Assembly: GCA_040757205.1 (NCBI GenBank) | Contig: JBFLXL010000001.1 | Coordinates: 62,001 to 126,000, forward strand | Reading direction: 5' to 3' | Length of the DNA stretch: 64,000 nt | From: Bacillota bacterium | Lineage (GTDB): Bacteria; Bacillota; Desulfotomaculia; Desulfotomaculales; Desulforudaceae | Shown: positions 7,557 to 55,569 of the stretch, piece by piece | How the letters are laid out: each line of letters starts with the position of its first letter | How positions within the stretch are numbered: position 1 is the first letter of the stretch | The notes under the pieces: model-generated | The model's input: only the letters and a program-made list of their open reading frames with translations | Told to the model about the DNA's origin: nothing | Database searches by the model: none | Program-made: the position numbers and the translations under genes

Positions 7557-7584
7557 GAAGCGGTTGCTTATTTCGCCTAGCTAG

Positions 7585-7613
7585 TTGCCAAATTCACAAA
7601 CATCATTTATGCT
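7585..7613 (+). promoter_or_regulatory. Sigma-A type promoter for cinA
   Basis: TTGCCA (7585-7590), 17-bp spacer, TATGCT (7608-7613) in the AT-rich gap 7557-7653. The following leader of about 35 bases has no obvious Shine-Dalgarno sequence before the cinA ATG. Confidence 0.65.
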
Positions 7614-7653
7614 ATGCATAGGCTAATATTCTTCGTTTGGGTGTGTTTTTTCA

Positions 7654-8898: not shown

Positions 8899-8901
8899 AG
8901 C

Positions 8902-8936
8902 AGGAATCCAGAATCCAGCAGTCAGAATCCAGCATT
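8902..8936. repeat. Heptad repeat stretch (7-bp period), copy 1
   Basis: Immediately after cinA the sequence is built of AGAATCC/CAGAATC/AGCAGTC heptads. The same family recurs at 50480-50515 and 58745-58964. Noncoding. Confidence 0.7.
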
Positions 8937-8985
8937 TGGAAGACAGAATAGGTACAATAATCTGGAGCCCGGAACAGAAGCCGTT

Positions 8986-9106
8986 TACTTAGAGCACTCT
9001 TTCCGGCCGTGGGGCCGAGCGTTCTCGTGCTGTTTTGCGGTGTTGGATCCGCTTTCGGAAACAGCCCGCAGTCAAGTGCTCTTTCACTAAGGGCCTTGTT
9101 TTTTTT
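8986..9106 (+). ncRNA. Possible structured RNA or leader between cinA and recA
   Basis: CTTAG (8988-8992) plus AGCACT (8993-8998) can pair with CTAAG (9087-9091) and AGTGCT (9075-9080), closing a roughly 75-base interior. Inside, TTTCCG can pair with CGGAAA and GCGG with CCGC. A run of eight T follows at about 9099-9106, as in a factor-independent terminator. No reading frame with a ribosome site crosses the region. I do not recognise the family, and it could simply be the end of the cinA transcript. The fold was worked out by eye. Confidence 0.3.
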
Positions 9107-9154
9107 CACGAAGGTGAAAAGTCTACCGCGTTTTCCTGACATTCCAAGTATATC

Positions 9155-9183
9155 TTTCCAAATATTCGCCTTTCGCTTACAAT
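9155..9183 (+). promoter_or_regulatory. Putative recA promoter
   Basis: TTTCCA (9155-9160), 17-bp spacer, TACAAT (9178-9183), 36 bases before the recA ATG. No clear Gram-positive LexA box (GAAC-N4-GTTC) was seen around it. Confidence 0.55.
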
Positions 9184-9218
9184 GGGTTTTAGAGAAAAAA
9201 AGGGAGGGGTACAAAACA

Positions 9219-10256
9219 ATGATGGACCGGCAGAAGGCCCTGGAACTGGCCCTGGCCCAGATTGAGCGGCAGTTCGGCAAGGGTTCGGTGATGAAGCTGG
9301 GTGAGGCCGCCGGGAAACTGAGTGTGGAAGTGATCCCTACCGGTGCCCTGGCGCTGGATTTGGCCCTGGGGGTGGGCGGAATGCCCCGGGGGCGGGTGAT
9401 TGAAATCTTCGGTCCCGAGGCTTCGGGCAAAACCACCGTGGCCTTGCACGTGATCGCCGAAGCCCAGAGAATGGGGGGCACCGCCGCCTTCATTGACGCG
9501 GAGCACGCGCTGGACCCCACTTACGCCCGGAAAATGGGTGTGGACATCGACAACCTCTTGATTTCCCAACCGGATACCGGCGAACAGGCCCTGGAGATTA
9601 CGGAGGCCCTGGTCCGGAGCGGCGCGCTGGACGTGGTGGTGATCGACAGTGTGGCCGCCCTGGTGCCGCGGGCGGAGTTGGAAGGTGAAATGGGCGACAT
9701 CCACGTCGGTCTCCAGGCGCGGCTGATGTCCCAGGCCCTGCGCAAACTGACGGCCGTCATCGGCAAATCGCGCACGGTGGCCATTTTCATCAACCAGATC
9801 CGGGAGAAGGTGGGCGTAATGTTCGGCAGTCCGGAGACCACCCCGGGCGGCCGGGCCCTGAAATTCTACTCCTCGATCCGGCTGGAAGTGCGCCGGCTGG
9901 AGGCGCTGAAACAGGGTGCGGAGACCGTGGGGGCCCGGGTGCGTGTCAAGGTGGTCAAGAACAAGGTGGCGCCGCCCTTCAAACAGGCCGAGTTCGATCT
10001 TCTGTACGGAGAGGGTATTTCCCTGTTGGGCAGCCTCCTTGACGTGGCCACCGACCTGCGGGTGGTGGCGAAAAGCGGCGCCTGGTACTCGTACGGCCAG
10101 GAGCGCTTGGGCCAGGGCCGGGAGAACGCCCGCGAGTTCTTGAAGGAGCATCCCGAGTTGGTGGACAAGATTTCGCAGCAGGTGAAGGAAATGCTCGGCA
10201 GTCCGGGCACCAAACTGGGGATGGCCGCCACCGGGGATGAGAAGGAAATCGAATAA
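9219..10256 (+). CDS. recA: Recombinase RecA
   Basis: 345 residues, normal length. RecA forms filaments on single-stranded DNA, drives strand exchange and stimulates LexA self-cleavage. Walker A is GPEASGKT (65-72), with [13 protein letters not shown] (L2 region) and the homology blocks [10 protein letters not shown] and [20 protein letters not shown]. The open frame runs upstream to 9009, but that part is not RecA-like. The ATG pair at 9219/9222 follows AGGGAGGGG with good spacing, so 9219 is taken as start. The next gene starts inside its last 20 bases. Confidence 0.97.
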
Positions 10257-10950
10257 CAGGTACCGGCACCTGTTTGGCCTGGCTCTTCTCCTGGCCTTGA
10301 TTCTGGGTGCCGGGTGTGAGCCGTTGGCTCCGGAGAACCGGGCGCGGGAAGAGGACGGGCTGGTTGCCGTCCGGGTGGTGCGGGTGGTCGATGGCGACAC
10401 GCTGGTGGTGGCCTTGCCCGACGGCGCCGAGGAGCGCTTGCGGCTGATCGGGGTGGACACCCCGGAGATTTCAGAACCCCCTGAGCCATTTGGACTGGAA
10501 GCGGCCGCTTACGCCGCGGAACACTTGGACGGCCGGAGGGTGTTTCTGGAGACCGATGTGGCGCCGCGAGACCGTTACGGCAGGCTTCTGGGGTACTTAT
10601 GGCTTGATAGTCCGTCCGGGCTTTCCGGAGAGGACCATGTGCGGGAAAAGCTCTTCAACGCGCGCTTGCTGCTCGACGGGTATGCGCAGTTGATGACCGT
10701 GCCGCCCAATGTGAAGTACGCCGATCACTTCCGGGAGTTCCAACGGGAGGCCCGGGAGAACGGGCGGGGACTCTGGGGGACGGCGGTGGACGAAGAGGAT
10801 TCTTACATAGGAAACAGCAGCACCAGGCGTTTCCACCGTCCGGATTGCGCCAGCGCCGGGCGGATCGCACCCCAGAACCAAATCCGTTTCGAAACCAGGG
10901 CGGATGCGTTCAACTCGGACTATGAACCGTGCCGGATCTGCAAACCATAA
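10237..10950 (+). CDS. Secreted lipoprotein nuclease, SNase (thermonuclease) type
   Basis: 237 residues. The N-terminus has basic residues, a hydrophobic stretch and a lipobox-like ILGAGC ending near residue 27, so it is probably an anchored lipoprotein. The SNase fold follows: [24 protein letters not shown], and [12 protein letters not shown], which contain the calcium-binding Asp and the catalytic Arg/Glu positions of Staphylococcus nuclease. A C-terminal block [10 protein letters not shown]...YEPCRICKP resembles the Ada-like metal-binding module often attached to these nucleases. It should cut extracellular DNA or RNA. It overlaps recA by 20 bases in another frame; the overlap does not imply a shared function. 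Confidence 0.85.
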
Positions 10951-40325: not shown

Positions 40326-42212
40326 ATGGACGAACCGTTGGCCTCCGGCAAGATAAGCACCGCCCTGGACCGGGCCCGCGAAATCAAACCCTGTCCGCTC
40401 GGGGCTGGCGGGACCTGCTGTCGGGTCTGCGCCATGGGGCCCTGCCGGGTAACGGAAACAGGAAAGGGGGCCCGGGTGGGGGTGTGCGGGGCGACACCGG
40501 ACACCATCGCCGCCCGCAACCTCTGCCGGATGATCGCCGCAGGCACGGCGGCCCACTCCGACCACGCGCGGGAGGTGGTCGAGACGTTCTGCGCGGCGGC
40601 CCGGGGGACGGCTCCCGGTTTTGAGCTCCGGGACCGGGAGAAGCTCGCGCGCCTGGCGGCCCAACTCGGCTGCGACCAGGCGGGAGACCCGTACGCGCTG
40701 GCGCGGGAGGTGGGCCGACTGCTTCTCGGGGAATTCGGCCGGCAGGACGGGGAGTTGGCGCCGGCCGCACTCGCGCCGACCCGGCGGTTGGAGCGGTGGC
40801 GCCGCCTCGGGGTGGTGCCGCGCGGCATCGACCGGGAGGTGGTGGAGACCCTGCACCGGACCCACATGGGGGTGGACCAGGAGGCGGGACACCTGCTGCG
40901 CCAGGGGACCCGCACCGCCCTGGCGGACGGCTGGGGCGGCTCGATGATCGCGTGCGCCGTCCAGGACGTCCCGCTCGGGACTCCCCGGCCGGTGCGCTCC
41001 CGGGTGGACCTGGGGGTGTTAAAGCCGGACTTTGTGAATGTCGTGGTCCACGGCCACGAGCCGCTTTTGCCGGAAGTGCTGGTGCGATTGGCCGGGGACG
41101 GGGAGATCACCGCCCGCGCCCGCGCGGTGGGGGCGGCCGGGGTCAACATCGCCGGGATGTGCTGCACGGCCAATGAACTCCTGATGCGCCACGGCGCGCC
41201 GGTCGCCGGCCATTTTCTGCAGCGGGAGCTGGCGATCCTCACCGGGGCCGTGGAACTGATGCTGGTGGACGTGCAGTGCGTGATGCAGGGACTGACGGCG
41301 GTGGCCGCCTGCCACCACACCCGGCTGGTGACCACTTCGGCGAAGGCCCGGATCAAGGGCGTGCGCCACGCGGCGTTTACGCCCCAGACCGCGCTTGATG
41401 CCGCCCGGGAACTGCTTTATGCGGCGATCGACAACTTCCCGCACCGCCGGCGGGTGGACATCCCGCCGCAGGCCGTAGAACTGGTGGCCGGCTTCGGGCC
41501 GGAGAGCGTCCGCTACGCCCTGGGGGGCCGTTTCCGCGGTTCCTACCGGGTGTTGAACGAGAACATCATCAGCGGGCGGGTGCGGGGGGTGGCGGCGGTG
41601 GTGGGCTGCACCAACCCGCGGGCCGCGTCCGGGGCGAGCCACGGGGTGCTGGTGCGGGAACTCCTGGCCAACGACGTGCTGGTGCTGGTCACCGGGTGCG
41701 CGGCGCTGGCTTGCGCCCGGGAGGGGTTGCTGGTGCCGGAGGCGGCCGCCGGCGCCGGCCCGGGCTTGCGCGAGGTCTGCGAGGCATTGGGGATTCCGCC
41801 GGTGCTGCACTGCGGCTCGTGCGTGGACAACAGCCGGATTCTTCTCATGGCGGCCGAGATGGTCCGCGAGGGCGGCCTTGGGGACGACCTTTCCGACCTG
41901 CCGGTGGCCGGCTGCGCTCCCGAGTGGATGAGAGAGAAGGCGCTGGCCATCGGGCAGCACTTCGTCGGCAGCGGGATTTCCGTCGGCCTGGGCGTGTACT
42001 TCCCGGGGGCGGACAGCAAGGAGTCCGCCGCCGAGGTATTTGGGGGGCTGGCGGAAGACTACGGCGCGGCCTGGTTTTTCGAGCCCGACCCCGAGTTGCT
42101 GGCCCGAAGGATCCTGGCCCACATCGACGGGAAACGGCGCGCCCTGGGCATTGAGGACCGGCGGGAGCGGGTGCTCTACGACATGGAGATGAGGAGGCGT
42201 CTCGATGTCTAG
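40326..42212 (+). CDS. cooS: Carbon monoxide dehydrogenase catalytic subunit
   Basis: 628 residues, full length. It interconverts CO2 and CO and passes CO to the acetyl-CoA synthase. The N-terminal cysteines for the B and D clusters are present (KPCPLGAGGTCCRVCAMGPCRV). C-cluster ligands are conserved: His242 (VVHGHEP), the MCCTANE cysteines (279/280), DVQCVMQG, VGCTNPR, VTGCAALACA, HCGSCVDNSR and AGCAPEWM. The ATG at 40326 is used (a TTG directly before it is possible), with GGGGAG upstream. It overlaps acsB by 8 bases. The place ahead of acsB marks it as the acetogenic-type AcsA rather than a stand-alone CO oxidiser. Confidence 0.96.
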   Translation: MDEPLASGKISTALDRAREIKPCPLGAGGTCCRVCAMGPCRVTETGKGARVGVCGATPDTIAARNLCRMIAAGTAAHSDHAREVVETFCAAARGTAPGFELRDREKLARLAAQLGCDQAGDPYALAREVGRLLLGEFGRQDGELAPAALAPTRRLERWRRLGVVPRGIDREVVETLHRTHMGVDQEAGHLLRQGTRTALADGWGGSMIACAVQDVPLGTPRPVRSRVDLGVLKPDFVNVVVHGHEPLLPEVLVRLAGDGEITARARAVGAAGVNIAGMCCTANELLMRHGAPVAGHFLQRELAILTGAVELMLVDVQCVMQGLTAVAACHHTRLVTTSAKARIKGVRHAAFTPQTALDAARELLYAAIDNFPHRRRVDIPPQAVELVAGFGPESVRYALGGRFRGSYRVLNENIISGRVRGVAAVVGCTNPRAASGASHGVLVRELLANDVLVLVTGCAALACAREGLLVPEAAAGAGPGLREVCEALGIPPVLHCGSCVDNSRILLMAAEMVREGGLGDDLSDLPVAGCAPEWMREKALAIGQHFVGSGISVGLGVYFPGADSKESAAEVFGGLAEDYGAAWFFEPDPELLARRILAHIDGKRRALGIEDRRERVLYDMEMRRRLDV

Positions 42213-44412
42213 GATTATTGCCGCGGCGGCCATCCGGGGTGCGGCGGGGCTGGTGGCCCGGGCCGGGGCGGACCTGACCGGGGCGCTCGCCGCCTACGGT
42301 CCCGACCAGCGGGTGGGCTTTCCGAATACCGGGTACTACTTGCCGGTTATCTACGGCATCACCGGGCGGCGGGTGGAACGGCTGGGCGACCTGGAACCGG
42401 TGCTGGAGACGGCCCGGGGGCTGGTGCCCGCCGAGCCGGCGGAGCGGGTGTGGCTGCCCTACCTGGGCGGCGCCCTGGACGCGGGGATGGCCGCGCTCTT
42501 TGCCGCCGAGACCATCGAGGCGCTGCGCTACCTGACCGCGCCGGGTGGCTGCAGCGGTGAGACGGCGCCCGCGCCGGGCGGCCTTTGGCTTGGGGCGGCG
42601 GACGACGCCGTGTTGCGGCGCCGCGGCCTGGAGTTCGTCGACGGCTCGGCGCCCGGGTTCGCCGTTTGCGTGGGGGCGGCGCCGTCGGACGAGGCGGCGG
42701 TGCGCCTGGCCCGCGAGTGCCAGGAGAAGAACCTCTATGTGTTCATGTGCGCGTCGTCCGGGGGGCGGAGCATGGCCGAACAACTGGCGGCTCGGGGGGT
42801 GCGGATGGGTTGGGAGACCCGCCTGGTGCCCTTTGGCGCCGATGTGACCGCGACCGTGTTCGCCCTCGGGTTTGCGGTGCGGGTGGCGCTTTCGTTCGGC
42901 GGGGTGGCGCCGGGGGACTACGCGCGGCTCCTGTCCTACACGACCAACCGGGTGTTCGCCTTCGTGCTCGCCCTGGGCGCGGTCGACGACGAAAAAATCG
43001 CCCACGCGGCCGGGGCGCTGAACTTCGGGTTTCCGGTGGCGGCCGACACGGACATTCCCGAAATCCTGCCGAGCGGCGTCTGTACGTATGAGCACGTGGT
43101 GGCGAACGTGCCGCCTGAGAGCCTGGTCGGGCGGGCCTGCGAGGTGCGGGGCTTAAAGATCGCCGTGAACCGGGTGCCGGTGCCCGTGGCCTTCGGCCCG
43201 GCGTTCGAGGGGGAGACCGTCCGGCGCAGGGACATGCACGTCGAGTTCGGGGGGCAGAAAGCGCCGGGTTTTGAACTGGTGCGGACCGCCGGACCGGACG
43301 CGGTCGAGGACGGGAGCATCACCCTGTCGGGGCCGGACGTGGACGCGGTCGCGGAGGGCGGTGCCCGGCCGCTGGGAATCGTGGTGGACGTCTACGGGCG
43401 CAAAATGGAACCGGACTTCGAGCCGGTGCTGGAGCGGCGCCTGCACCACTACCTGAACTACGCGCAGGGGGTCTGGCACATCGGCCAGCGGGACGCGAAC
43501 TGGGTCCGGATCAGCAAAGAAGCGTACGGGCGGGGTTTTCGGTTGCGGCACCTGGGGGACATCCTGTATGCTAAACTGAAATCCGAGTTTGCCAGCATCG
43601 TGGACCGGGTGCAGGTGCGGCTATCGACGGAGGCGGGCGAGGTGGAGGCCTGGCGCGGGGAGGCCCGGGAATACTACGCCCGGCGCGACGCCCGCCTGGC
43701 CGTGCTGAGTGACGAGAACGTCGACACTTTCTACTCGTGCACTCTCTGCCAGTCGTTCGCGCCGACGCACGTCTGCGTGGTGCTGCCGGAGCGGGTGGGA
43801 CTCTGCGGTTCGGTCAGCTGGCTCGACGCCCGGGCGGCGCACGAGATCGACCCGCACGGCTGCAACCGGCCCGTACCCAAGAAGGACGTTCTGGACGCGG
43901 CGGGCGGGGAGTGGGCGTCCTGCAACGAGTTCATCCGGACCAGCTCCCGGGGGACCATCGAGCGGGTCAAGTTCTACACGATCATGGACTCCCCGCTGAC
44001 TTCGTGCGGCTGCTTCGAGGCGATCGTGTGCATCGTGCCCGAGGGCAACGGGTTTTTGATCGTGAACCGGGAATACGCTGGGATGACTCCGGCGGGCATG
44101 CCCTTCTCCACCCTGGCGGGGAGCATCGGGGGCGGGGTGCAGACCCCGGGCTTCATGGGCGTGGGCAAGGCTTACCTCGGCTCCCGGAAATTCTTGAAGG
44201 CCGACGGGGGGCTCGCCCGGATTGTCTGGATGCCCGCCGCCTTCAGGGAACAGATGCGCCCGGTGCTCGAAAAACGGGCTGAGGAAGAGGGCCTGGGCGC
44301 GGACTTCGTGGACCGGATCGCCGACGAGACCGTCGGCACGGAGGTGGAGGCGATCCTGGCCTTCCTGGAAGAAAGGGAGCACCCGGCCTTAAGCCTTCCC
44401 CCCCTCTTTTAG
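42205..44412 (+). CDS. acsB: Acetyl-CoA synthase subunit of CODH/ACS
   Basis: 735 residues. It joins CO, the methyl group from the corrinoid protein and CoA into acetyl-CoA at the nickel A-cluster. The ligands are all here: C512, C515, C524 and C534 (SCTLCQSFAPTHVC...GLCG) for the [4Fe-4S] part, and C601-G602-C603 (TSCGCFE) for the two nickel sites. Their spacing is the same as in the Moorella enzyme. The N-terminal domain that docks CooS is present, unlike in archaeal Cdh. The ATG lies inside the end of cooS. Confidence 0.97.
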   Translation: MSRIIAAAAIRGAAGLVARAGADLTGALAAYGPDQRVGFPNTGYYLPVIYGITGRRVERLGDLEPVLETARGLVPAEPAERVWLPYLGGALDAGMAALFAAETIEALRYLTAPGGCSGETAPAPGGLWLGAADDAVLRRRGLEFVDGSAPGFAVCVGAAPSDEAAVRLARECQEKNLYVFMCASSGGRSMAEQLAARGVRMGWETRLVPFGADVTATVFALGFAVRVALSFGGVAPGDYARLLSYTTNRVFAFVLALGAVDDEKIAHAAGALNFGFPVAADTDIPEILPSGVCTYEHVVANVPPESLVGRACEVRGLKIAVNRVPVPVAFGPAFEGETVRRRDMHVEFGGQKAPGFELVRTAGPDAVEDGSITLSGPDVDAVAEGGARPLGIVVDVYGRKMEPDFEPVLERRLHHYLNYAQGVWHIGQRDANWVRISKEAYGRGFRLRHLGDILYAKLKSEFASIVDRVQVRLSTEAGEVEAWRGEAREYYARRDARLAVLSDENVDTFYSCTLCQSFAPTHVCVVLPERVGLCGSVSWLDARAAHEIDPHGCNRPVPKKDVLDAAGGEWASCNEFIRTSSRGTIERVKFYTIMDSPLTSCGCFEAIVCIVPEGNGFLIVNREYAGMTPAGMPFSTLAGSIGGGVQTPGFMGVGKAYLGSRKFLKADGGLARIVWMPAAFREQMRPVLEKRAEEEGLGADFVDRIADETVGTEVEAILAFLEEREHPALSLPPLF

Positions 44413-44499: not shown

Positions 44500-45831
44500 A
44501 TGGCGTTGACCGGACTGGCGATCTACAAGCTCTTGCCGAAGACCAACTGCAAGGAGTGCGGGCAGGCCACCTGCCTGGCGTTCGCGATGCAGATCGCCTC
44601 GGGCAAGGCCGGACTGGACGCCTGCCCGCACGTGAGCGCCGAGGCGCGGGAGACGCTGAGCGCCGCCTCGGAACCGCCGGTGGCTCTGGTGCGGATCGGC
44701 TCCGGTGAAAGCGCCCTGGAGATCGGCAACGAAACGGTGCTGTTCCGGCACGACAAGCGGTTCGTGCACCCCACCGGGATCGGGATCATCGTCCCGGACA
44801 CCCTGGAAGACGGCGACCTGGCGGAGCGGGTCGGCCGGGTGAACCGGCTCTTTTTCGACCGGCTGGGGCAGATTCACGGGGTCGACCTCCTGGCGGTGCG
44901 CTGCGAATCCGGCGACCCGGAGCGTTACGCGCGTGCGGTGAGCGCGGCGGCCGCGCTCACGCCGCTCAATTTGGTGCTTTTCGGCGCGGGGCCGGAAACG
45001 GCGGCGCGCTCACTCGAGGCGGCGCACGCGCGCAAGCCGCTCCTGTACGCCGCCGACGCGGAGAACCTGGAGCCGATGGTGGCGCTGGCCCGCCGCTACG
45101 ACCTGCCCCTGGCCGTGCGGGGCCGGGACCTGGACGAGCTGGCCGAACTCTCCGGGCGGGCGGTTCAGGCGGGCCACAAGCAGTTGGTGCTGGACTCCGG
45201 CGCCCGGGAGGTGGGCCGGGTGCTCGCCGACCAGACGCAGATCCGGCGTTTGGCGGTGAACAAGCGTTTCCGCCCCTTCGGCTTTCCGACCATCTGCCTG
45301 GCCGCCGGTGCGGACGCCGTGCCGGACGCCGCCGTGTACATCGGGAAGTACGCGGCGCTGGTGCTTCTCGACACCGCCGACCCGGCCGACCTCCTGCCGC
45401 TGATCACCTGGCGGCTGAACGTGTACACCGACCCCCAGAAACCGATCGCCATCGAGGCCAAAGTGTACGAGGTCGGGAACCCCGGGCCCGAGGCCCCGGT
45501 GTTTTTGACCACCAATTTCTCGCTGACCTATTTTTGCGTGCGCGGCGACGTGGAGGCGGCCCGGGTGCCGGCCTACATCCTGCCGGTCGACACCGACGGC
45601 ACCTCGGTGCTCACCGCCTGGGCGGCCGGCAAGATGGCCCCCGAGAAGATCGGGACTTTTCTGGAGTCCTCGGGGATCGCCGGGCGCGTACGGCACCGGC
45701 GGCTGATCATCCCCGGGGGGATCGCGGTTTTAAGCGGCAAGCTGCGGGAAGCGACCGGTTGGGAAGTGCTGGTCGGACCGCGGGAGTCCGGGGCGATTCC
45801 GGCCTTTTTAAAGGAGTACTGGTCCCAATAG
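44500..45831 (+). CDS. acsC: Corrinoid iron-sulfur protein, large subunit
   Basis: 443 residues. With AcsD it carries the methyl group on cobalamin from AcsE to AcsB. The N-terminal [4Fe-4S] domain has C17, C20, C25 and C42 (NCKECGQATCLAFAMQIASG), followed by a TIM barrel and a C-terminal B12-binding domain (PVDTDGTSVLTAWAAGKM...IPGGIAVLSGKLREATGWEVLVGPRES). Length is normal. The ribosome site is weak (AAGGGGT about 13 bases before the ATG), which may lower its translation relative to its neighbours. Confidence 0.96.
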   Translation: MALTGLAIYKLLPKTNCKECGQATCLAFAMQIASGKAGLDACPHVSAEARETLSAASEPPVALVRIGSGESALEIGNETVLFRHDKRFVHPTGIGIIVPDTLEDGDLAERVGRVNRLFFDRLGQIHGVDLLAVRCESGDPERYARAVSAAAALTPLNLVLFGAGPETAARSLEAAHARKPLLYAADAENLEPMVALARRYDLPLAVRGRDLDELAELSGRAVQAGHKQLVLDSGAREVGRVLADQTQIRRLAVNKRFRPFGFPTICLAAGADAVPDAAVYIGKYAALVLLDTADPADLLPLITWRLNVYTDPQKPIAIEAKVYEVGNPGPEAPVFLTTNFSLTYFCVRGDVEAARVPAYILPVDTDGTSVLTAWAAGKMAPEKIGTFLESSGIAGRVRHRRLIIPGGIAVLSGKLREATGWEVLVGPRESGAIPAFLKEYWSQ

Positions 45832-45936: not shown

Positions 45937-47898
45937 GTGCGGTTTCTGCCGGACGAAGTGGAAGTTGAAATAAGGGAAGGCGAGTCGGTCCTGGAACTGG
46001 CGGCGCGGGCCGGCATCACCCTGCGCGGCGCCTGCGGGGGCGACGGCACTTGCGGCCGCTGCCTGGCGGTGTTGCGGGAGGGCGCCGTCCGCGACGCCGA
46101 CGGAGTGACGCTCGCCGAGGCCGAGGCTGTGTTCCGGGCCTGCCGGTTCCACCCGGTGGACGGCCCGGTGGTGATCGAGGTGCCGGACGCCTCGCGGCTG
46201 CACGAGCACCTGGTGCTGACCGGCGGCGGGGACGAGGACGCCGGACCGCTTTGGGCCAAGGAAAGTGCCGTACCTATTGGCAGGCAAGCGGACGGGCCGC
46301 CGGACGACCCTCTTTTGCGCCGGGTGATCGCGGACGTTGTGCCGCCGGAGCCCGGGGACGGGGGCAGCCGGGGGGCGGGGACGGACGACTGGGGGCGGCT
46401 GGCTTCGGCGTTGGCGCGGGAGACCGGCGGGGAGGAGGTCCGGGCGGACCTTTTCGTGCTCCGGGAACTGCCGGCCGTGCTGCGGGCGCGGGACTGGACG
46501 GTGACGGCGGATTTGGGAACGGCCGGGGGGCCGGGCCGCGAGGTGGTGGCGGTGGAGGCGGGCCGGGCGGCGGGGCCGGCGTACGGGTTGGCGGTGGACC
46601 TGGGGACCACCACGGTGGCGGCAGAACTGGTCGACTTGGAGAGCGGCCGGGTGCTGGGCACGCTCGGCACCTACAACCGTCAGGCCGCCTATGGGGATGA
46701 CGTGATCTCCCGGATTGTTTTTGCCGGGGAGCACCCCGGAGGACGGCGTCAGCTCCAGGAGGCGGTCATAAACACGGTGAACGGCCTCGTCGACGAGTTG
46801 CGGCGCGGGTGCGGGATCGGCCGGGACGCGGTCCGGGCCGCCGTTTGCGCGGGCAACCCCGCGATGGCCCACCTCTTTCTGGGGGTGGACCCGGCCCACA
46901 TCCGGCTGGAGCCGTACACCCCGGCGGCGAATTTCTGGCCGCCGTGCCGCGCGGCAGACGTGGGGCTTGACCTTCACCCCCGGGCGCCCGTGTATGTATT
47001 GCCCGGCGTGGCCAGCTACCTCGGCGGGGACATTACGGGCGGGCTGACGGCCTCCGGGTTCGGCACGGACGGGCGGGCGGCGCTTTTCGTGGACATCGGG
47101 ACCAACGGGGAAATGGTTTTAGGAGACGGGGACTGGCTGGTCGGCTGCTCCTGCTCGGCCGGACCGGCCTTCGAGGGCGGCGGGATCGCCTGCGGGATGC
47201 GGGCCGTCGCCGGGGCGGTCGAACGGGTGGGGGTCACGCCCGGCGGATTTGAAGTGGTGTGCCGGACCATCGGGGACGGTCCGCCGGCCGGGGTGTGCGG
47301 TTCGGGGCTGATCGCGGCCCTGGCGGGCTTGCGGCGGGCCGGGGTGATCAACCGGGCCGGGCAGTTTGAACCGGGTTTGGAAACACCCCGTTTCCGGCGG
47401 GGCGGCGGCGAAGCCGGCGGGGGCGTTTCCGGCGGGGCGGGGCTTGAGTTCGTACTGGCCTGGGCGCGCGAGACGGCGCACGGCCGGGACCTCGTGCTGA
47501 CCGGGGCGGACGTTCAAAACCTGTTGCGCGCCAAGGCGGCGGTGTTCGCCGGGCTGCGCACGCTCCTGGCCGCCGTGAACCTCGACCAGCGGGAGATCAG
47601 CCGGGTATACATCGCCGGCGGGTTCGGGCGGTTTTTAAATCTGCCTGAGGCCGTAGCCGTCGGGATGCTGCCCGACATCGCCCCCGAGCGGTACACCTTT
47701 GTCGGGAACAGTTCCCTGCGGGGGGCGCGGGCCGCCCTGCTGTCGGGCCGCCGTCTGGCCGGAATCGGGGAGACGGCGCGCCGGGTCACCTACCTGGAAC
47801 TGGGTGAGGGCACTGGCTTTATGGAAGAATATATGGCGGCGCTCTTCTTGCCGCATACCGATATGGGACTTTTTCCATCAGTACGGGAGCGTGAGTGA
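45937..47898 (+). CDS. acsV: Reductive activator of the corrinoid protein (RACo)
   Basis: 653 residues. RACo uses ATP and low-potential electrons to bring oxidised Co(II) corrinoid back to Co(I). The N-terminal ferredoxin-like domain binds a [2Fe-2S] cluster (C33, C39, C42 in GACGGDGTCGRC, with CRFHP later). A linker/middle domain leads to the ASKHA ATPase part: YGLAVDLGTTTVAAELVDL, FVDIGTNGEMVLG and YIAGGFGRFLNL. The DUF4445 blocks cover the C-terminal half. The GTG start at 45937 follows the GGGGGTG of repeat C. It lies between acsC and cooC, its usual place in acetogen clusters. Confidence 0.93.
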   Translation: MRFLPDEVEVEIREGESVLELAARAGITLRGACGGDGTCGRCLAVLREGAVRDADGVTLAEAEAVFRACRFHPVDGPVVIEVPDASRLHEHLVLTGGGDEDAGPLWAKESAVPIGRQADGPPDDPLLRRVIADVVPPEPGDGGSRGAGTDDWGRLASALARETGGEEVRADLFVLRELPAVLRARDWTVTADLGTAGGPGREVVAVEAGRAAGPAYGLAVDLGTTTVAAELVDLESGRVLGTLGTYNRQAAYGDDVISRIVFAGEHPGGRRQLQEAVINTVNGLVDELRRGCGIGRDAVRAAVCAGNPAMAHLFLGVDPAHIRLEPYTPAANFWPPCRAADVGLDLHPRAPVYVLPGVASYLGGDITGGLTASGFGTDGRAALFVDIGTNGEMVLGDGDWLVGCSCSAGPAFEGGGIACGMRAVAGAVERVGVTPGGFEVVCRTIGDGPPAGVCGSGLIAALAGLRRAGVINRAGQFEPGLETPRFRRGGGEAGGGVSGGAGLEFVLAWARETAHGRDLVLTGADVQNLLRAKAAVFAGLRTLLAAVNLDQREISRVYIAGGFGRFLNLPEAVAVGMLPDIAPERYTFVGNSSLRGARAALLSGRRLAGIGETARRVTYLELGEGTGFMEEYMAALFLPHTDMGLFPSVRERE

Positions 47899-47901
47899 AG
47901 C

Positions 47902-48693
47902 ATGCAGATTGCGGTGGCCGGCAAGGGCGGCGTGGGCAAGACCACCTTCACGGCGTTGGTGGTCAGAGAGCTGGTGAGTACGGGGAACGTCCCGGTGCTG
48001 GCGGTGGACGCGGACGCGAACGCGAACCTGGCCGAAGCGCTCGGCGTCGCGGTCGAGGGCACGGTGGCCGACGTGCTGGCGGAACTGAGCGGCGACCGGA
48101 GTTCCCGGCCCGGGGGGATGACTAAGGCGGAGTACATGGACTTTCGCCTGCACCAGGTGATGGCTGAGTCCCCGGCGGTGGACCTCATGGTGATGGGCGG
48201 GCCGGAAGGGCCGGGGTGTTACTGCTACGCCAACAACCTCCTGCGGGGCTTAATGGAGCGCAAGGCGCGCGACTACCCCTTCCTGTTGCTGGACAACGAG
48301 GCCGGCCTGGAGCACTTGAGCCGCCGCACCACGCGGGAGGTCGACCTCCTGTTCGTGGTCAGCGACGCCACGGTGCGCGGCCTCCGGTCGGCCCAGAGGA
48401 TTCACCGGCTGGCCGGGAGCCTCGAACTCGGGATCAAGAGAATTTTCCTGGTCGTGAACCGGGTGGGCGGCGGCGGGGCGCGCGCGGCATTGGAAGGGCC
48501 GGTCGCGGCGACCGGGCTGGAGGTGGCCGGCTGGGTGCCCCAGGATCCGGCGGTGGAGGCGTGGGACCTGGAAGGGCGGCCGTTTATGACGCTGCCGGAC
48601 GACGCCCCGGCGGTCGCGGCCGTGCGGGAGATCGTGCGCCGCTTGGTGCTGGGGCGGCCGGACGATGCGAACCGGGGATCGGCACGGGCGTAA
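47902..48693 (+). CDS. cooC: Nickel-insertion ATPase CooC/AcsF
   Basis: 263 residues, MinD-like P-loop ATPase that matures CODH/ACS by nickel loading. Deviant Walker A GKGGVGKTT (residues 7-15), switch VDADANANLAEALG, and the CYCYANN motif, whose CxC pair binds the metal between two subunits. LLLDNEAGLEHLSRRTT is the Walker B region. The ATG lies 3 bases after acsV. One such gene must serve both CooS and AcsB unless another copy exists elsewhere. Confidence 0.95.
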   Translation: MQIAVAGKGGVGKTTFTALVVRELVSTGNVPVLAVDADANANLAEALGVAVEGTVADVLAELSGDRSSRPGGMTKAEYMDFRLHQVMAESPAVDLMVMGGPEGPGCYCYANNLLRGLMERKARDYPFLLLDNEAGLEHLSRRTTREVDLLFVVSDATVRGLRSAQRIHRLAGSLELGIKRIFLVVNRVGGGGARAALEGPVAATGLEVAGWVPQDPAVEAWDLEGRPFMTLPDDAPAVAAVREIVRRLVLGRPDDANRGSARA

Positions 48694-48734
48694 TCGGGGC
48701 TCTTCCGGCTCCGAAGAGAAGGAGAAGCAAGCAG

Positions 48735-50479
<1,745 letters not shown>

Positions 50480-50550: not shown

Positions 50551-53547
50551 TTGGCAGTCCACAAGGTGGGAGCGGTAGTGGTAATCGGGGGCGGCATTGC
50601 GGGAATTCAGGCCGCCCTTGATCTCGCCGACGGGGGTTTTGCGGTCTATCTGGTGGACGAGGCGCCGGCCCTGGGCGGCAAGATGCCGCAGTTGTCCAGA
50701 ACCTTCCCAACTAACGAGTGTGCGCTGTGTTCGTTTTCACCGCAACTGGCCAGAATCGCCCGGCATCCGAAAGTCGCGGTGCTCGCGGGCACCCGGGTGG
50801 AAAAGGTGAGCGGCGCGCCGGGGCGGTTCAACGTTTCTCTGCGCCGTTTCCCCCGGGGCGTGGTGGTGGAGGCGTGCCGGGATTGCGGCGAATGTGCCGC
50901 CGTGTGCCCGGTGGAAGTGCCGGACGCTTTCAACACGGGATTCAGCACCCGCAAGGCGGTCTACCAACCCTACGCCCAGGCCTATCCCCGGGCCTATGCC
51001 ATCGATCCTGCGCACTGCATCGAATGCGCCTTGTGCGCCCAAACCTGCCCAACCGGGGCGATCTTGCTCGGGGCCCCCGAGGAGCCGCTCGAGGTGGAGG
51101 CCGGAGCCGTGATTCTGTGCCCCGGCTACGAGGCGTTCGATCCGTCACCGTTAAGGAACTGGGGCTTTCGCGTGTTGCCGGACGTGGTCACCAACCTGGA
51201 ACTGGAACGTCTCCTTAGTGCCGCCGGTCCCTTCGGGGGACGTTTGATCCGTCCGTCCGACGGCACGCCGCCGCGGAGCATCGCCTGGATCCAGTGCGTC
51301 GGTTCGCGGAACCGCACCCTGGGCCGGGAGTACTGTTCCACGGTGTGTTGCATGGCGGCGCTGAAAGGGGCGGTCACGGCGCGGGAGCAGGCGGACGGCC
51401 CCCTGGAGACAGTGGTTTTCTATCAAGAAATGCGCACTCCGGGCAAGGGGTTTGACCGTTACCGGCAGCGGGCCGAGCGGGAAGGGGTGGAGTTGCGGTG
51501 CGCCGGGGTGGACACGGTTCAGCAACGCGAAAGCGGCGGCCTCGAGGTGCGGTGGGCCGGACCTGACGGCTTCGGGCGCCGGGCGTTCGACATGGTGGTC
51601 CTGTCCGCCGGCTTCACGCCCGCCCCCGGAGCGGCGGCTCTTGCCCGGCGTCTCGGGGTGGCTCTGGACCGGCATGGTTTTTGCCGGCCGGCGGCGCCGG
51701 GGACTACAGAGAGTTCCCGGCCCGGCATCTTTGTGGCCGGGGCGTTTGCCGGCCCCAAGGACATCGCGGCGGCCGTGATTGAGGCCGGGGCGGCGGCGGC
51801 CGAAGCAAGCGCGTTGTTGGCGGGGGCGCGGGGCGCGGCGGTCCGGGACGATGAGCCGGTTCCTGAGCGCGACGTGCGTGAAGAACGCCCCAGGGTCGGG
51901 GTGGTAGTGTGCCGTTGCGGCACCAACATCGCCGGGTCGATCGATGTCCCGGCGGTGGCGGAGGCGTCCGGGCGGCTGGAAGGCGTGGCCCTGACCCTGG
52001 AGATGATCCACGCCTGCGCGCCGGACAGCCTGGACCGGCTGGCGGCAACGGTACGCGAACACGGCCTGAACCGGCTGGTGGTTGCGGCCTGCAGCCCGCG
52101 CAGCCACAAACCGTTGTTCCAAAACGTGCTCCGCGATGCCGGGGTGAACGGGGCGCTGTGCGAGATGGCCAATATCCGCGAACAATGCGCCTGGGTGCAT
52201 CCGGACCCGCCTGCGGCAACCGCCAAGGCCTGCCGGTTGGTGACCATGGCGGTAGCCAAATCGCGCCTGCTGGAACCGGTGCCCCCGGTTACGGTGCCGG
52301 TCATGCCTGCGGCCCTCGTGGTGGGTGCGGGTCCGTCCGGTTTGTCGGCCGCGCTGGGACTGGCGGACCAGGGATTTGAGGTCCACCTGGTGGATAAGCA
52401 AAAAACCCCCGGCGGCGCTTTTCGCGCGGTGGACGGGGGAGGGCGTCCCGGAACCAGCTTGGTTTCTCCCTTGGCCGAGCGGGTTGTCCGGCACCCGCTG
52501 GTGCGGTTTTATCCCGAGAATGAGCCGGTGGCGGCCGACGGGCACATCGGCTGTTTTTCCACCCGCCTGCGCGGCGGCCAGGTGGTCCGCCACGGCGTGG
52601 CAGTGCTGGCCACCGGGGCGTGGGAATCGCGGCCGGACTCATACTTGTGCGGAGAACACCCGGCGGTGGTCACCCTGTCGGAGGCGGAGCGGGAAGGGCC
52701 CAAAGCCTGGAACGGGGATGCGGACACGACGGTGTTCATCCAGTGCGTCGGTTCCCGTGACGCGCGCCGCCCCTGGTGCAGCCGGTCCTGCTGCCGCCGG
52801 AGCCTGGCCCTGGCTCTGGAAATGAAGGCGGCGCACCCCAAGCGTGAGATCTACATCTTGTTCCGGGACCTCACCGTCACCGGGACCGACGAGGATCTGT
52901 ACTCCGAGGCCCGGGCCCGGGGGATCGTGTTCATCCGCTACCGCCCGGGCCAAGAGCCGCGGGTCGGTCCCGTCGGCGAAAGGGTGGCGGTGGAGGCGGC
53001 CGACCCGGTACTGGACTGTAACTTCCGGATCGACGCGGACCGGGTGGTCCTGGCGGCTGCCGCCGAGGCCTCCCCGGACAGCCGGGCGCTGGCGCACCTG
53101 TTCAAAGTGCCGGCCGACCGGGACGGTTTTTTCCTGCAGGCGCACACCACCCTGAGGCCGGTGGACTTCTCCGCGGCCGGGGTGTTTATGTGCGGCGGCG
53201 CGGCGGGCCCGAAGGGCTTGGTGGAAAGCCTCCTCGAGGGCCGGGCCGTGGCGGCGCGGTGCGCCACGGTTTTGGGCCGGGGGTTGGTGACGGCCCCCGG
53301 CGTCCACGCCCGGGTGGCGCCCGAGAAATGCACGGCCTGCCTTGGCTGTGTCCGCGTATGCCCCTTCAACGTGCCGGTGGTCTCCGGGAACGTCTCCCGG
53401 ATTGAGCCGGTGCAGTGCCAGGGTTGCGGAATCTGCGTGGCCGAGTGTCCGAACGCCGCCATTCACCTAATCGGTTACCGTAAGGAGCAACTGCTGACGC
53501 AAGTGCGTGCCGGCTTGGCCGGCGGTGCGGGGGAGGTGGGCGCGTGA
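50551..53547 (+). CDS. hdrA: Doubled HdrA-like flavoprotein (two HdrA units in one chain)
   Basis: 998 residues. The first half is an HdrA core without the usual N-terminal domain: FAD site VVVIGGGIAGIQAALDLAD, then two [4Fe-4S] motifs (CRDCGECAAVCP from C109, CIECALCAQTCP from C156). The second half starts near residue 449 with the HdrA N-terminal domain (GVVVCRCGTNIAG), has its own FAD site (VVGAGPSGLSAALGLAD, near 590) and ends with two more clusters (CTACLGCVRVCP, CQGCGICVAECP). HdrA is the flavin centre of electron-bifurcating or -confurcating complexes. With MvhD, MetV and MetF following in overlapping frames, it is the likely electron module of methylene-THF reductase. TTG start, AGGGGTGAG upstream. 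Confidence 0.9.
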   Translation: MAVHKVGAVVVIGGGIAGIQAALDLADGGFAVYLVDEAPALGGKMPQLSRTFPTNECALCSFSPQLARIARHPKVAVLAGTRVEKVSGAPGRFNVSLRRFPRGVVVEACRDCGECAAVCPVEVPDAFNTGFSTRKAVYQPYAQAYPRAYAIDPAHCIECALCAQTCPTGAILLGAPEEPLEVEAGAVILCPGYEAFDPSPLRNWGFRVLPDVVTNLELERLLSAAGPFGGRLIRPSDGTPPRSIAWIQCVGSRNRTLGREYCSTVCCMAALKGAVTAREQADGPLETVVFYQEMRTPGKGFDRYRQRAEREGVELRCAGVDTVQQRESGGLEVRWAGPDGFGRRAFDMVVLSAGFTPAPGAAALARRLGVALDRHGFCRPAAPGTTESSRPGIFVAGAFAGPKDIAAAVIEAGAAAAEASALLAGARGAAVRDDEPVPERDVREERPRVGVVVCRCGTNIAGSIDVPAVAEASGRLEGVALTLEMIHACAPDSLDRLAATVREHGLNRLVVAACSPRSHKPLFQNVLRDAGVNGALCEMANIREQCAWVHPDPPAATAKACRLVTMAVAKSRLLEPVPPVTVPVMPAALVVGAGPSGLSAALGLADQGFEVHLVDKQKTPGGAFRAVDGGGRPGTSLVSPLAERVVRHPLVRFYPENEPVAADGHIGCFSTRLRGGQVVRHGVAVLATGAWESRPDSYLCGEHPAVVTLSEAEREGPKAWNGDADTTVFIQCVGSRDARRPWCSRSCCRRSLALALEMKAAHPKREIYILFRDLTVTGTDEDLYSEARARGIVFIRYRPGQEPRVGPVGERVAVEAADPVLDCNFRIDADRVVLAAAAEASPDSRALAHLFKVPADRDGFFLQAHTTLRPVDFSAAGVFMCGGAAGPKGLVESLLEGRAVAARCATVLGRGLVTAPGVHARVAPEKCTACLGCVRVCPFNVPVVSGNVSRIEPVQCQGCGICVAECPNAAIHLIGYRKEQLLTQVRAGLAGGAGEVGA

Positions 53548-53981
53548 ACCCTGATCGCAGGATAATCGCCTTCTGCTGTTATAATTGTGCGTATGCCGCC
53601 GCCGACCTGGCGGGGGCCATGCGGGTGCCCTACGATCCCGGGGTGGCCGTTGTAGGAGTGCCCTGTACCGGGGCGATCGAGGCCGCCGTGGTGCTCGGTG
53701 CCTTCGAGGAGGGCGCCGACGGGGTGTTTGTCGCGGGCTGCCTGGACGGCGAATGCCGCTACAAGGAAGGCAACCTGCGGGCTCGGGAGCGGGTGGCCGG
53801 GCTGCAGAAGCGGCTGGCCGAGGTGGGTCTGGAGCCCGGGCGGTTGGAAATGTACCAGTTGTCGGCCGCCATGGGCACCCGTTTCGGAGAAATCGTCGCC
53901 GAGTTTGTGGGGCGGATCAAGGCTCTGCCCCCGTCAAGGTTGGGCAGAGGCGCCGCCGTCAAGGGGGGTGTGCCCGGATGA
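53544..53981 (+). CDS. mvhD: MvhD-type [2Fe-2S] electron-transfer subunit
   Basis: 145 residues. MvhD links HdrA to an electron donor, a hydrogenase in methanogens. The cysteine pattern is intact: IAFCCYNCAYAAADLAGAMR, VGVPCTGAIE and VAGCLDGECRYKEGN. The GTG start overlaps the hdrA stop (GTGA), and its own stop overlaps metV. There is no hydrogenase or formate dehydrogenase gene near, so the donor is unknown. Confidence 0.9.
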   Translation: MNPDRRIIAFCCYNCAYAAADLAGAMRVPYDPGVAVVGVPCTGAIEAAVVLGAFEEGADGVFVAGCLDGECRYKEGNLRARERVAGLQKRLAEVGLEPGRLEMYQLSAAMGTRFGEIVAEFVGRIKALPPSRLGRGAAVKGGVPG

Positions 53982-54643
53982 TCGTCACGGAGGCAAAGTC
54001 CTTCGTCCTGGTGGCCGCTATGATCACGGGCTTCCGGCGGGTGCTGGTGGCGGCCTGTGCCGGGTGCACCGCCGTTTGCGGGGTGGGCGGGGAGCGCCAA
54101 GCGGGAGAGCTGGCGGACGCCCTGCGCCTGCACGCCCGCCTGCGGGGCGAAGTGCTGGATACCGAAGTGCGCGGGGTTACCCGGCAGTGTGAGCCTGAAT
54201 TCGTCGCCGAACTCGCCCCGGCGGTGGCCCGCGCCGAAGCGGTGCTCACCCTGGGGTGCGGTGTGGGCGCTCAGTTTCTGGCGGAGCACTACCCGGGCGT
54301 GCCGGTGCTGCCCGGGGTGAACACCCGGTTCGCCGGGGGCTTGGCGGCGCCCGGGGTGTGGGAGGAACGCTGCCGCCTGTGCGGGGACTGTGTGCTGTAC
54401 CTGACCGGGGGCGTCTGCCCGCGCACCCGCTGCGCCAAGGGCATCATGAACGGCCCCTGCGGGGGCGCCGCCGGCGGGCTTTGCGAGGTGGGCAACGCCA
54501 CCCCCTGCGCCTGGCTGTTGATCTGGGAACGGCTGGAGCGGCTGGGGCGCACCGGGACCCTGGACGAGATCGGCCCGCCGCCGGACTGGTCCGGCGCCCA
54601 GGCCGGCCCGCGGCGGTCCGGGAAAGGGGGCGGGGTGGAATGA
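53978..54643 (+). CDS. metV: Zinc/iron-sulfur partner of methylene-THF reductase
   Basis: 221 residues. MetV pairs with MetF in acetogens and carries iron-sulfur and zinc sites that pass electrons to the flavin of MetF. Visible cysteines: AACAGCTAVCGVG near the N-terminus and the dense block CRLCGDCVLYLTGGVCP...RCAKGIMNGPCGG, the hallmark of the MetF-associated C-terminal domain. The ATG overlaps mvhD by ATGA and the stop overlaps metF. A Pro/Gly-rich tail ends the protein. Confidence 0.9.
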   Translation: MIVTEAKSFVLVAAMITGFRRVLVAACAGCTAVCGVGGERQAGELADALRLHARLRGEVLDTEVRGVTRQCEPEFVAELAPAVARAEAVLTLGCGVGAQFLAEHYPGVPVLPGVNTRFAGGLAAPGVWEERCRLCGDCVLYLTGGVCPRTRCAKGIMNGPCGGAAGGLCEVGNATPCAWLLIWERLERLGRTGTLDEIGPPPDWSGAQAGPRRSGKGGGVE

Positions 54644-55569
54644 CCGGCGTGAGTGGGCTGGCCCGGGTGCTTGAAGCCGGGCGGTTCGCGGTGACCTGCG
54701 AGGTGGGTCCGCCCAAGGGCGCGGACGTGCGGGGGCTGGCGGCCAAGGCCGCCATGCTGAAGGGTTTCGTGGACGCGGCCAACGTCACCGACTGCCAGAC
54801 CGCGGTGGTCCGGCTTTCCAGCGTCGCCGCCGGTGTGCATCTGGCGGCTGCGGGCCTGGAACCGGTGGTCCAGATGACCGCTCGCGACCGCAACCGGATC
54901 GCCGTCCAGAGTGATCTCCTGGGTGCTTACAGCCTGGGCGTCAGGAACGTGCTGTGCCTGACCGGCGATCACCAGAAGTTCGGCAACCATCCCGGTGCCA
55001 AGGGGGTGTTTGACTTGGATTCGGTCCAGATGGTGGATGTTGTGCGCCGCCTGGGCGACCCGGGGTTGTTTCAGTGCGGTGAGCCGGTGGACGGCGAACC
55101 GCCGGTGTTTTTCGTGGGTGCGGTGGAAAACCCCTGTGCTGAGCCGGTGGAGTTGCGGGTGCGGCGCCTGGACAAGAAGGTCCGGGCGGGGGCGCGCTTT
55201 CTCCAGACCCAGTGCGTTTACGACCTGGACCGGTTCCGGCGCTTCATGGGCCTGGTGCGGACCCGTGGCCTGCACGAGCGTGCCCACATCCTGGCCGGGG
55301 TCGCCCCGTTGAAGTCGGCCCGGATGGCCCGGTTCATGCGCGACGCGGTGGCCGGTGTTTACGTTCCCGACGCGGTGGTTGCCAGAATGGAGACAGCGGC
55401 TGATCCAGCCGCCGAGGGGGTTGCCCTGTGCGTCGAGCAGATCGCCGCACTCCGGGAGATTGAAGGCGTCGCCGGGGTGCACATCATGGCCGTCGCTTGG
55501 GAGAAGATCGTGCCCGAAATAGTGTGCCGGTCGGGTCTATACCCCCGCCCCGCGGCGGACCAGCGGTAG
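54640..55569 (+). CDS. metF: Methylenetetrahydrofolate reductase
   Basis: 309 residues, TIM barrel with FMN/FAD. It reduces methylene-THF to methyl-THF, the step before AcsE. Blocks: VTCEVGPPKGADV, ANVTDCQTAVVRLSS, VQMTARDRNRIAVQSDLLGAYSLGVRNVLCLTGDH, FLQTQCVYDLDRFRRFM and GVHIMAVAWEKIVPEIV. The ATG lies in an ATGA overlap with metV, so hdrA-mvhD-metV-metF are translationally coupled. NADH-binding sequences are not obvious, which fits electron delivery through MetV. Confidence 0.94.
   Translation: MTGVSGLARVLEAGRFAVTCEVGPPKGADVRGLAAKAAMLKGFVDAANVTDCQTAVVRLSSVAAGVHLAAAGLEPVVQMTARDRNRIAVQSDLLGAYSLGVRNVLCLTGDHQKFGNHPGAKGVFDLDSVQMVDVVRRLGDPGLFQCGEPVDGEPPVFFVGAVENPCAEPVELRVRRLDKKVRAGARFLQTQCVYDLDRFRRFMGLVRTRGLHERAHILAGVAPLKSARMARFMRDAVAGVYVPDAVVARMETAADPAAEGVALCVEQIAALREIEGVAGVHIMAVAWEKIVPEIVCRSGLYPRPAADQR

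Follow-up and report, generated by a model that had tools for sequence, protein, structure and literature searches.

The operon examined here raises the question of how electrons reach a methylene-tetrahydrofolate (methylene-THF) reductase (MTHFR) that is encoded together with HdrA and MvhD, but with neither HdrB and HdrC nor a hydrogenase. Which carriers Hdr-type MTHFRs use has been a question since 2014, and publications of 2026 still listed it as unanswered (PMC13040438, PMC13391211).

Gene order and occurrence of the operon

The genes lie in a 64,000-nucleotide stretch of DNA (the window) from a deep-subsurface sulfate reducer. The operon runs in the order acsE-hdrA-mvhD-metV-metF, with further acs genes upstream, all on the forward strand:

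42205..44412, +, acsB, CODH/ACS acetyl-CoA synthase subunit (NCBIfam NF040764 over cut-off; operon context)
44500..45831, +, acsC, corrinoid protein large subunit (Pfam CdhD 1.3e-100 plus FeS; operon context)
45937..47898, +, RACo-type corrinoid activator (Pfam RACo_C_ter 1.3e-91; operon context)
47902..48693, +, cooC-like maturation ATPase (Pfam CbiA; operon context)
48705..49688, +, acsD, corrinoid protein small subunit (NCBIfam PRK04452 over cut-off; operon context)
49685..50479, +, acsE, methyl-THF:corrinoid protein methyltransferase (NCBIfam PRK07535 over cut-off)
50551..53547, +, hdrA, fused (type II), 998 aa, TTG start (NCBIfam HdrA2, 5odc_A)
53544..53981, +, mvhD, [2Fe-2S] adapter (Pfam FlpD PF02662 1.5e-44; 5odc_D 4.6e-32)
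53978..54643, +, metV (MetV C-terminal domain PF12225 1.3e-32; Cys set invariant)
54640..55569, +, metF, methylene-THF reductase flavoprotein (MTHFR PF02219 2e-37)

Coordinates and Pfam matches bore out the outline given in the earlier note, namely a 998-residue HdrA followed by MvhD and MetVF, an exact 4-base overlap at each joint of hdrA, mvhD, metV and metF, and no linked HdrBC or hydrogenase. The MetV-MetF pair is that of the MetVF-type (type II) MTHFRs; no solved structure is similar to MetV by sequence. No hdrB or hdrC could be found between acsE and metF, either here or in relatives with the same block, and the operon contains neither a hydrogenase gene (MvhAG) nor a membrane subunit. 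The acsE product is predicted to be the supplier or the consumer of the MetF product.

The claim that HdrB and HdrC are missing holds for the operon but not for the genome, where the suggested search for separate hdrBC returned three HdrB-type loci: beside qmoAB on contig C3, within hdrCBA-mvhD-flx on C5, and as an HdrCB fusion on C11 that adjoins a second fused HdrA near fhs. Absence of HdrBC from the whole genome was therefore discarded, and an HdrBC arm could be supplied in trans by these genes. A set of mvhD-mvhG-mvhA, without hdrA, was located on C15.

The HdrBC-less block recurs in ten other genomes, of which one is assembled as a single 2.35 Mb contig, and chance or artefact was rejected on this ground. 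The copy in G045 ends at a contig edge inside hdrA, and locus L040 is cut at a contig edge, its upstream region lying beyond it. The HdrAs of these operons form one clade (clade A) within the class (SH-aLRT 98), and the operon is the only metV locus found in genomes G043, G044, G001, G002, and G070. The genes mvhD-metV-metF also occur without hdrA, beside a second acs cluster, which favours a direct link between MvhD and MetVF.

Domain build and flavin residues of the fused HdrA

The identity of HdrA is supported by NCBIfam HdrA2 (1.7e-244) and PDB 5odc_A (4e-156). An AlphaFold2 model of the protein (mean pLDDT 87.8, pTM 0.90) was compared with known HdrA, and both halves match the solved protein, with unit 1 aligning to residues 149-575 of 8rwn_A (Z 47.9, rmsd 1.9 over 422). 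The following features were assigned:

50560..51828, +, unit 1, residues about 4-426, thioredoxin-reductase-like FAD-1 domain that carries the ferredoxin insert (fold match 8rwn_A)
50728..50730, +, Cys60, equivalent to Cys197 of methanogen HdrA (alignment to 5odc_A; invariant in clade A), putative ligand contributed to the N-terminal cluster of the partner
50848..51084, +, inserted ferredoxin domain, residues about 100-178, two [4Fe-4S] ligand sets (8 Cys kept, 9/9 clade A), predicted ferredoxin port
51205..51207, +, Glu219, the E356 bifurcation signature of FAD-1, kept (5odc_A and clade alignment)
51364..51366, +, Lys272, the K409 bifurcation signature of FAD-1, kept (5odc_A and clade alignment)
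51883..52305, +, HdrA N-terminal [4Fe-4S] domain, residues 445-585, single copy, in unit 2 (5odc_A residues 2-150)
52306..53280, +, FAD-2 domain of unit 2, residues 586-910, without inserted ferredoxin (5odc_A match, fold match)
52807..52809, +, Ala753 in place of the FAD-2 bifurcation lysine (K409 position; clade alignment)
53293..53520, +, C-terminal ferredoxin domain, two [4Fe-4S] ligand sets (5odc_A match, ligand alignment), predicted MvhD contact

The earlier note had described two HdrA units joined head to tail, with two FAD sites and four iron-sulfur motifs. The FAD sites are real (motifs at residues 11 and 590, giving two thioredoxin-reductase/FAD domains in the chain), but seven [4Fe-4S] ligand sets were counted, and the halves make up one complementary pair that shares single copies of the N-terminal, inserted ferredoxin, and C-terminal ferredoxin domains. 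Unit 1 has the inserted domain and lacks the other two, whereas unit 2 (445-993) has those two and lacks the insert. The counterpart of Cys197 is Cys60 in unit 1, with none in unit 2 by alignment, and thus lies on the opposite half from the N-terminal domain. Simple head-to-tail duplication was rejected because the two halves do not hold the same domains and are assigned by the literature to separate lineages (PMC12054007). Judged by these alignments, the protein is a type II HdrA as published, an intramolecular heterodimer; Chadwick et al. described such complementary halves in fused HdrA (PMC9012536).

By alignment, FAD-1 is the only flavin that retains both bifurcation residues. Its E219/K272 pair, the ligands of the inserted ferredoxin domain, and the other cluster ligands are kept in all nine aligned clade A sequences. 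Unit 2 keeps the glutamate (E713 at the E356 position) and has alanine at 753; the K409-position lysine of FAD-2 has given way to A, E, Q, D or L in all nine, and the sequence of G002, as a tenth, lacks it too. In other aligned fused HdrAs this position is Lys or Arg in 48 of 51 (33 of 35 in the alignment that included the nine clade A sequences). Type II HdrAs usually, but not universally, have both residues in both flavin domains; the missing lysine does not exclude this protein from the type because a survey found both in 75% of sequences (PMC12054007).

Relaxed evolution of the entire second half was rejected, the identities within clade A being alike for the two flavin domains (TrxR1 0.57, TrxR2 0.54). 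Twenty sites conserved elsewhere are lost in clade A, and the idea that they trace an HdrC interface was dropped because they are scattered over several domains. A general tie between loss of the lysine and loss of HdrBC was also set aside: Sporomusa has HdrBC without the second lysine, so the two losses do not track each other everywhere, and the Desulfobacula locus L043 keeps the lysine without linked HdrBC. Because clade A is a single lineage, the lysine loss may represent one event. That this residue is missing in exactly clade A lends some support to the proposal of confurcation in another way; the different donor that the earlier note also suggested is a hypothesis.

Candidate electron routes

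The most likely reading, which we hold tentatively, is an MTHFR that bifurcates or confurcates electrons and has a single competent flavin, with MetVF seated on MvhD and a third partner encoded elsewhere. Such an HdrBC-less, type IV-like methylene-THF reductase would work with the adjoining CODH/ACS branch. HdrA would stand for a whole HdrA dimer in one chain, a view supported by its domain complementarity, with ferredoxin docking at the inserted domain of unit 1 and electrons passing from the C-terminal ferredoxin domain to MvhD, MetV, and then MetF; MetVF would take the place of the hydrogenase or formate dehydrogenase of methanogen complexes. FAD-2, having lost its lysine, would presumably no longer be a bifurcating site. 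The potential of methylene-THF is about -200 mV, and a couple between ferredoxin and methylene-THF, from outside the operon, would complete the cycle, perhaps reacting at the altered FAD-2. Because MetVF-type enzymes can take ferredoxin electrons without HdrA, the keeping of HdrA and MvhD implies coupling; because the operon encodes no third partner, bifurcation is read from the residue signature only. The Moorella enzyme, for which ferredoxin was reported not to be a carrier (PMC13040438), counts against this reading, though its HdrA differs.

A plain ferredoxin:methylene-THF reductase, in which HdrA and MvhD only relay electrons to MetVF without bifurcation, appears rather unlikely. It would waste roughly 0.2-0.3 V, as estimated from general knowledge of potentials, and would leave a conserved HdrA-MvhD without clear purpose; the intact FAD-1 pair and ligands also speak against it. 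On the other hand, the ferredoxin and MetVF ports are the only ones recognisable in the operon, the second flavin has lost its lysine, and reduced ferredoxin is an accepted donor for the MetVF of other acetogens (PMC8515935, PMC9430772).

It is unlikely, too, that the C11 HdrCB fusion joins the complex and restores a Moorella-type enzyme, although an unlinked HdrCB is carried by 13 of 13 genomes tested, including those with HdrBC-less operons, so that in every clade A genome tested the arm may come in trans. Homologous HdrCB stands directly before hdrA-mvhD-metVF in relatives; in the loci inspected, however, HdrCB adjoins an HdrA fusion of its own that falls in a different clade, and no HdrBC standing apart from an HdrA or Qmo partner was found in the source genome.

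Less probable still, HdrBC loss and second-lysine loss may together have produced a minimal MTHFR whose FAD-2, with no lysine beside its N5 any more, accepts hydride straight from a soluble donor, e.g. NAD(P)H; each chain would then hold one bifurcating and one plain flavin, without HdrBC or a separate NADH module. A quinone-linked complex, in which membrane-partner electrons enter via MvhD or HdrA and are confurcated with a reductant, has been proposed for Sporomusa and Moorella, where MvhD is 75% membrane-associated (Sporomusa, PMC9430772) and a menaquinol-dependent mechanism was put forward (Moorella, PMC13040438), but is improbable here, as the operon has no membrane subunit and keeps the inserted ferredoxin domain that Sporomusa HdrA lacks.

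With no HdrBC arm, no linked NAD(P)H modules, and no other metV locus found in some genomes, there are fewer candidate partners, and the operon offers a natural test case for electron transfer in a poorly understood family. The hdrA-mvhD-metV-metF system, at four genes, is small enough for expression, and the lineage-specific absence of a bifurcation lysine points to a definite position that can be tested.

Comparison with known systems

An HdrBC-less gene order was published in 2021 for Ca. Desulforudis audaxviator; its acs cluster and that of Ca. Acetocimmeria pyornia have the same acsE-hdrA-mvhD-(metV)-metF order without hdrB/hdrC, for which a new class of acs cluster was suggested (PMC8671834). 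That paper compares annotations only and takes hdrA for a gene, or an isoform, of a 4Fe-4S ferredoxin; its passages on these clusters mention neither a fusion nor flavin sites nor residues. A literature search combining D. audaxviator with methylene-tetrahydrofolate reductase returned no paper. What appears new from the alignments is that these HdrAs form a single clade and that the second-flavin lysine is lost in all ten intact members.

Doubling of HdrA is not special to this operon, fused forms being known from Moorella and Sporomusa (PMC9012536, PMC9430772) and a relative being present in 85 of the 113 genomes from the class. The HdrA3-HdrA4 fusions of ANME and other type II HdrAs likewise combine two HdrA classes in one chain and split the N-terminal domain and Cys197 between the halves; in the ANME fusions the halves stand in the opposite order. 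Unlike the protein here, the majority of type II HdrAs retain both lysines, and the archaeal clusters in those reports pair with FdhB/Molybdop rather than MetVF (PMC12054007, PMC9012536).

HdrBC and MvhAG are not encoded with HdrA and MvhD as in HdrABC-MvhAGD. MetV and MetF are encoded with MvhD and HdrA, as in the type IV MTHFRs of Moorella and Sporomusa, but HdrB and HdrC are not in the operon, which is therefore filed as an HdrBC-less relative of that type and not as a full member. Related genomes of the class (L106-L112, L115, L118, L120, L122) have fused HdrA, MvhD, MetV, and MetF in the same order, but with fused HdrCB upstream, in several cases Flx NADH-type genes, and Lys or Arg at the second lysine position. 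The comparison with the Moorella metVF genes made in the earlier note was apt: Moorella thermoacetica (HdrCBA-MvhD-MetVF) likewise has MetVF, MvhD, and a fused HdrA after acsE, but also has HdrC and HdrB, and its 162.8 kDa HdrA includes a GltD NAD(P)H domain and bears the E/K signature in each of its two flavin domains (PMC9430772). Sporomusa ovata also has MvhD, MetV, MetF, and a two-flavin HdrA, in which, as here, only one flavin domain carries the signature (E160/K216). Its HdrA, without the second lysine or a GltD domain, showed weak NADH:viologen activity, and pulldowns showed MvhD-MetF, MetV-HdrA, and HdrA-MetF contacts (PMC9430772). Sporomusa has kept HdrBC and lacks the inserted ferredoxin domain, whereas the operon described here is the reverse.

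Operon layout and architecture of HdrA

The genes hdrA, mvhD, metV and metF lie exactly where the earlier note had placed them, with mvhD, metV and metF each overlapping the preceding gene by four bases, and Pfam and NCBIfam assign their products to HdrA, MvhD (FlpD family), MetV and MetF. They are preceded, in order, by acsB, acsC, the gene for a RACo-type activator, cooC, acsD and acsE. As had also been claimed, no gene for HdrB, HdrC or a hydrogenase is found in the acsE–metF interval. Alignment of the fused HdrA to methanogen HdrA gave three blocks whose order is not collinear:

HdrA residues 9–371, matching methanogen HdrA 146–511
HdrA residues 445–592, matching methanogen HdrA 2–150
HdrA residues 791–986, matching methanogen HdrA 449–647

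From this block alignment, the N-terminal half (unit 1) is a FAD domain with an inserted ferredoxin domain. The protein had been described as two HdrA units joined head to tail; it does contain two FAD domains but not two complete units: unit 1 lacks the N-terminal domain and the C-terminal ferredoxin domain, both of which unit 2 has, and unit 2 lacks the inserted one. The equivalent of Cys197 is Cys60 in unit 1 and is absent from unit 2. Instead of the four iron-sulfur motifs first counted, the protein has ligand sets for seven [4Fe-4S] clusters: two each in the inserted and C-terminal domains, and a single set in the N-terminal domain and in either FAD domain. In an AlphaFold2 model (mean pLDDT 87.8, pTM 0.90), residues 4–426 and 445–993 match solved HdrA with Z scores of 47.9 and 36.6, respectively. 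Chadwick et al. described the same complementarity in fused HdrAs, the Moorella protein among them, and read it as an intramolecular heterodimer (PMC9012536). The halves of their ANME fusions stand in the opposite order. A 2025 survey names such fusions type II HdrA (PMC12054007).

The second flavin and the distribution of the operon

Residues Glu356 and Lys409 of methanogen HdrA are a marker separating bifurcating from non-bifurcating flavins (PMC9430772). Both are retained at FAD-1 of unit 1 (Glu219, Lys272); at FAD-2 of unit 2, Ala753 occupies the Lys409 position.

Fused HdrA was found in 85 of 113 genomes of the class Desulfotomaculia. Group A has the context acsE–hdrA–mvhD–metVF with HdrBC absent; group B has an HdrCB fusion immediately upstream of hdrA–mvhD–metVF, preceded in several cases by Flx (NADH-type) genes; the remaining contexts contain Flx or HdrC–HdrB and no metVF directly 3'. 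Group A forms a single clade apart from the other groups (clade A; SH-aLRT 98, by a quick tree method with some long branches), and its named members are Ca. Desulfopertinax cowenii, several Desulforudis MAGs and other Firmicutes/Peptococcaceae MAGs. The window's genus also includes G046, one contig of 2,349,476 bases, which we take to be Ca. D. audaxviator.

In nine clade A sequences the Lys409 position of FAD-2 holds Ala (four), Glu (two), Gln, Asp or Leu, and never Lys or Arg (0 of 9); a tenth, from G002, has Leu. Outside clade A, Lys or Arg is found in 33 of 35 aligned fused HdrAs and Lys in 15 of 16 added later, two Desulfobacterota sequences (L040, Ala; L043, Lys) being kept separate from these counts. 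Such diverse substitutions suggest that constraint on this position was lost, not that the residue took on a new fixed role; as clade A is one lineage, the loss may have been a single event.

A Desulfobacula MAG (L043) from outside the class has the set with no HdrBC linked to it; its HdrA (7477–10515) retains the second lysine and has lost Cys ligands of the inserted ferredoxin domain. Other Desulfobacterales encode hdrA as two separate genes, plus an HdrCB-like gene. In one of these, at locus L057 (6734–8845), a 703-residue protein with GltD-like NAD(P)H, ferredoxin and MvhD-like (FlpD) domains is encoded immediately upstream of an HdrCB-like gene and a split hdrA–mvhD–metVF set. Relatives (L185, 517–13768; L186, 2–14145) carry a large cluster, acsE–hdrA–hdrC–hdrB–mvhD–flx genes–(hdrCB)–fused hdrA–mvhD–metV–metF, in which a full NADH-linked Hdr module sits between acsE and metVF.

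Other Hdr, acs and metV loci

A search of the genome for separate hdrBC, which the earlier note had called for, upheld their absence from the operon but not from the genome:

Contig C3, HdrB-type gene adjoining qmoAB
Contig C5, HdrB-type gene within an hdrCBA–mvhD–flx set
Contig C11, HdrCB fusion adjoining a second fused HdrA, near fhs

The C11-type HdrCB was found in 13 of 13 genomes searched. On C11 (L031, 7298–15116), fhs, an mrp-like ATPase gene, the second fused HdrA and the HdrCB fusion stand together with mvhD absent, a neighbourhood that recurs in several of the 13. A second acs cluster on C10 (L033, 5928–12822) has mvhD–metV–metF and fhs, no hdrA, and formate-dehydrogenase-like genes on its flanks; counterparts occur in G046, G048, G049 and G073. 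Five genomes (G043, G044, G070, G001 and G002) have one metV each, the HdrBC-less operon being the only metV locus found. In-frame TGA codons in the mvhD genes on C15 and C5 and in the hydrogenase large subunit gene on C15 (L016, L017, L026) suggest selenocysteine.

Putative coupling and relation to known complexes

Ferredoxin would react at the inserted ferredoxin domain, and MetVF would dock through MvhD, given that the mvhD–metV–metF unit occurs without hdrA and given pulldowns in Sporomusa (PMC9430772). Because MetVF is able to use ferredoxin in the absence of Hdr subunits (PMC9430772), conservation of an HdrA with intact FAD-1 points to coupling with a third redox couple. The operon holds no gene for this partner; candidates would be a soluble hydride donor at FAD-2, unlinked HdrCB, an unlinked MvhAG hydrogenase or a quinone-linked partner.

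The open-access literature searched yielded no description of clade A or of the missing second lysine, which does not prove novelty. The family (type IV MTHFR) and the HdrA architecture are already known, and the HdrBC-less gene order itself has been on record since 2021, from Ca. D. audaxviator and Ca. A. pyornia (PMC8671834). In descriptions of the type IV complex, HdrBC is encoded alongside, a defining feature that the window operon lacks; the operon is therefore filed as an HdrBC-less variant.
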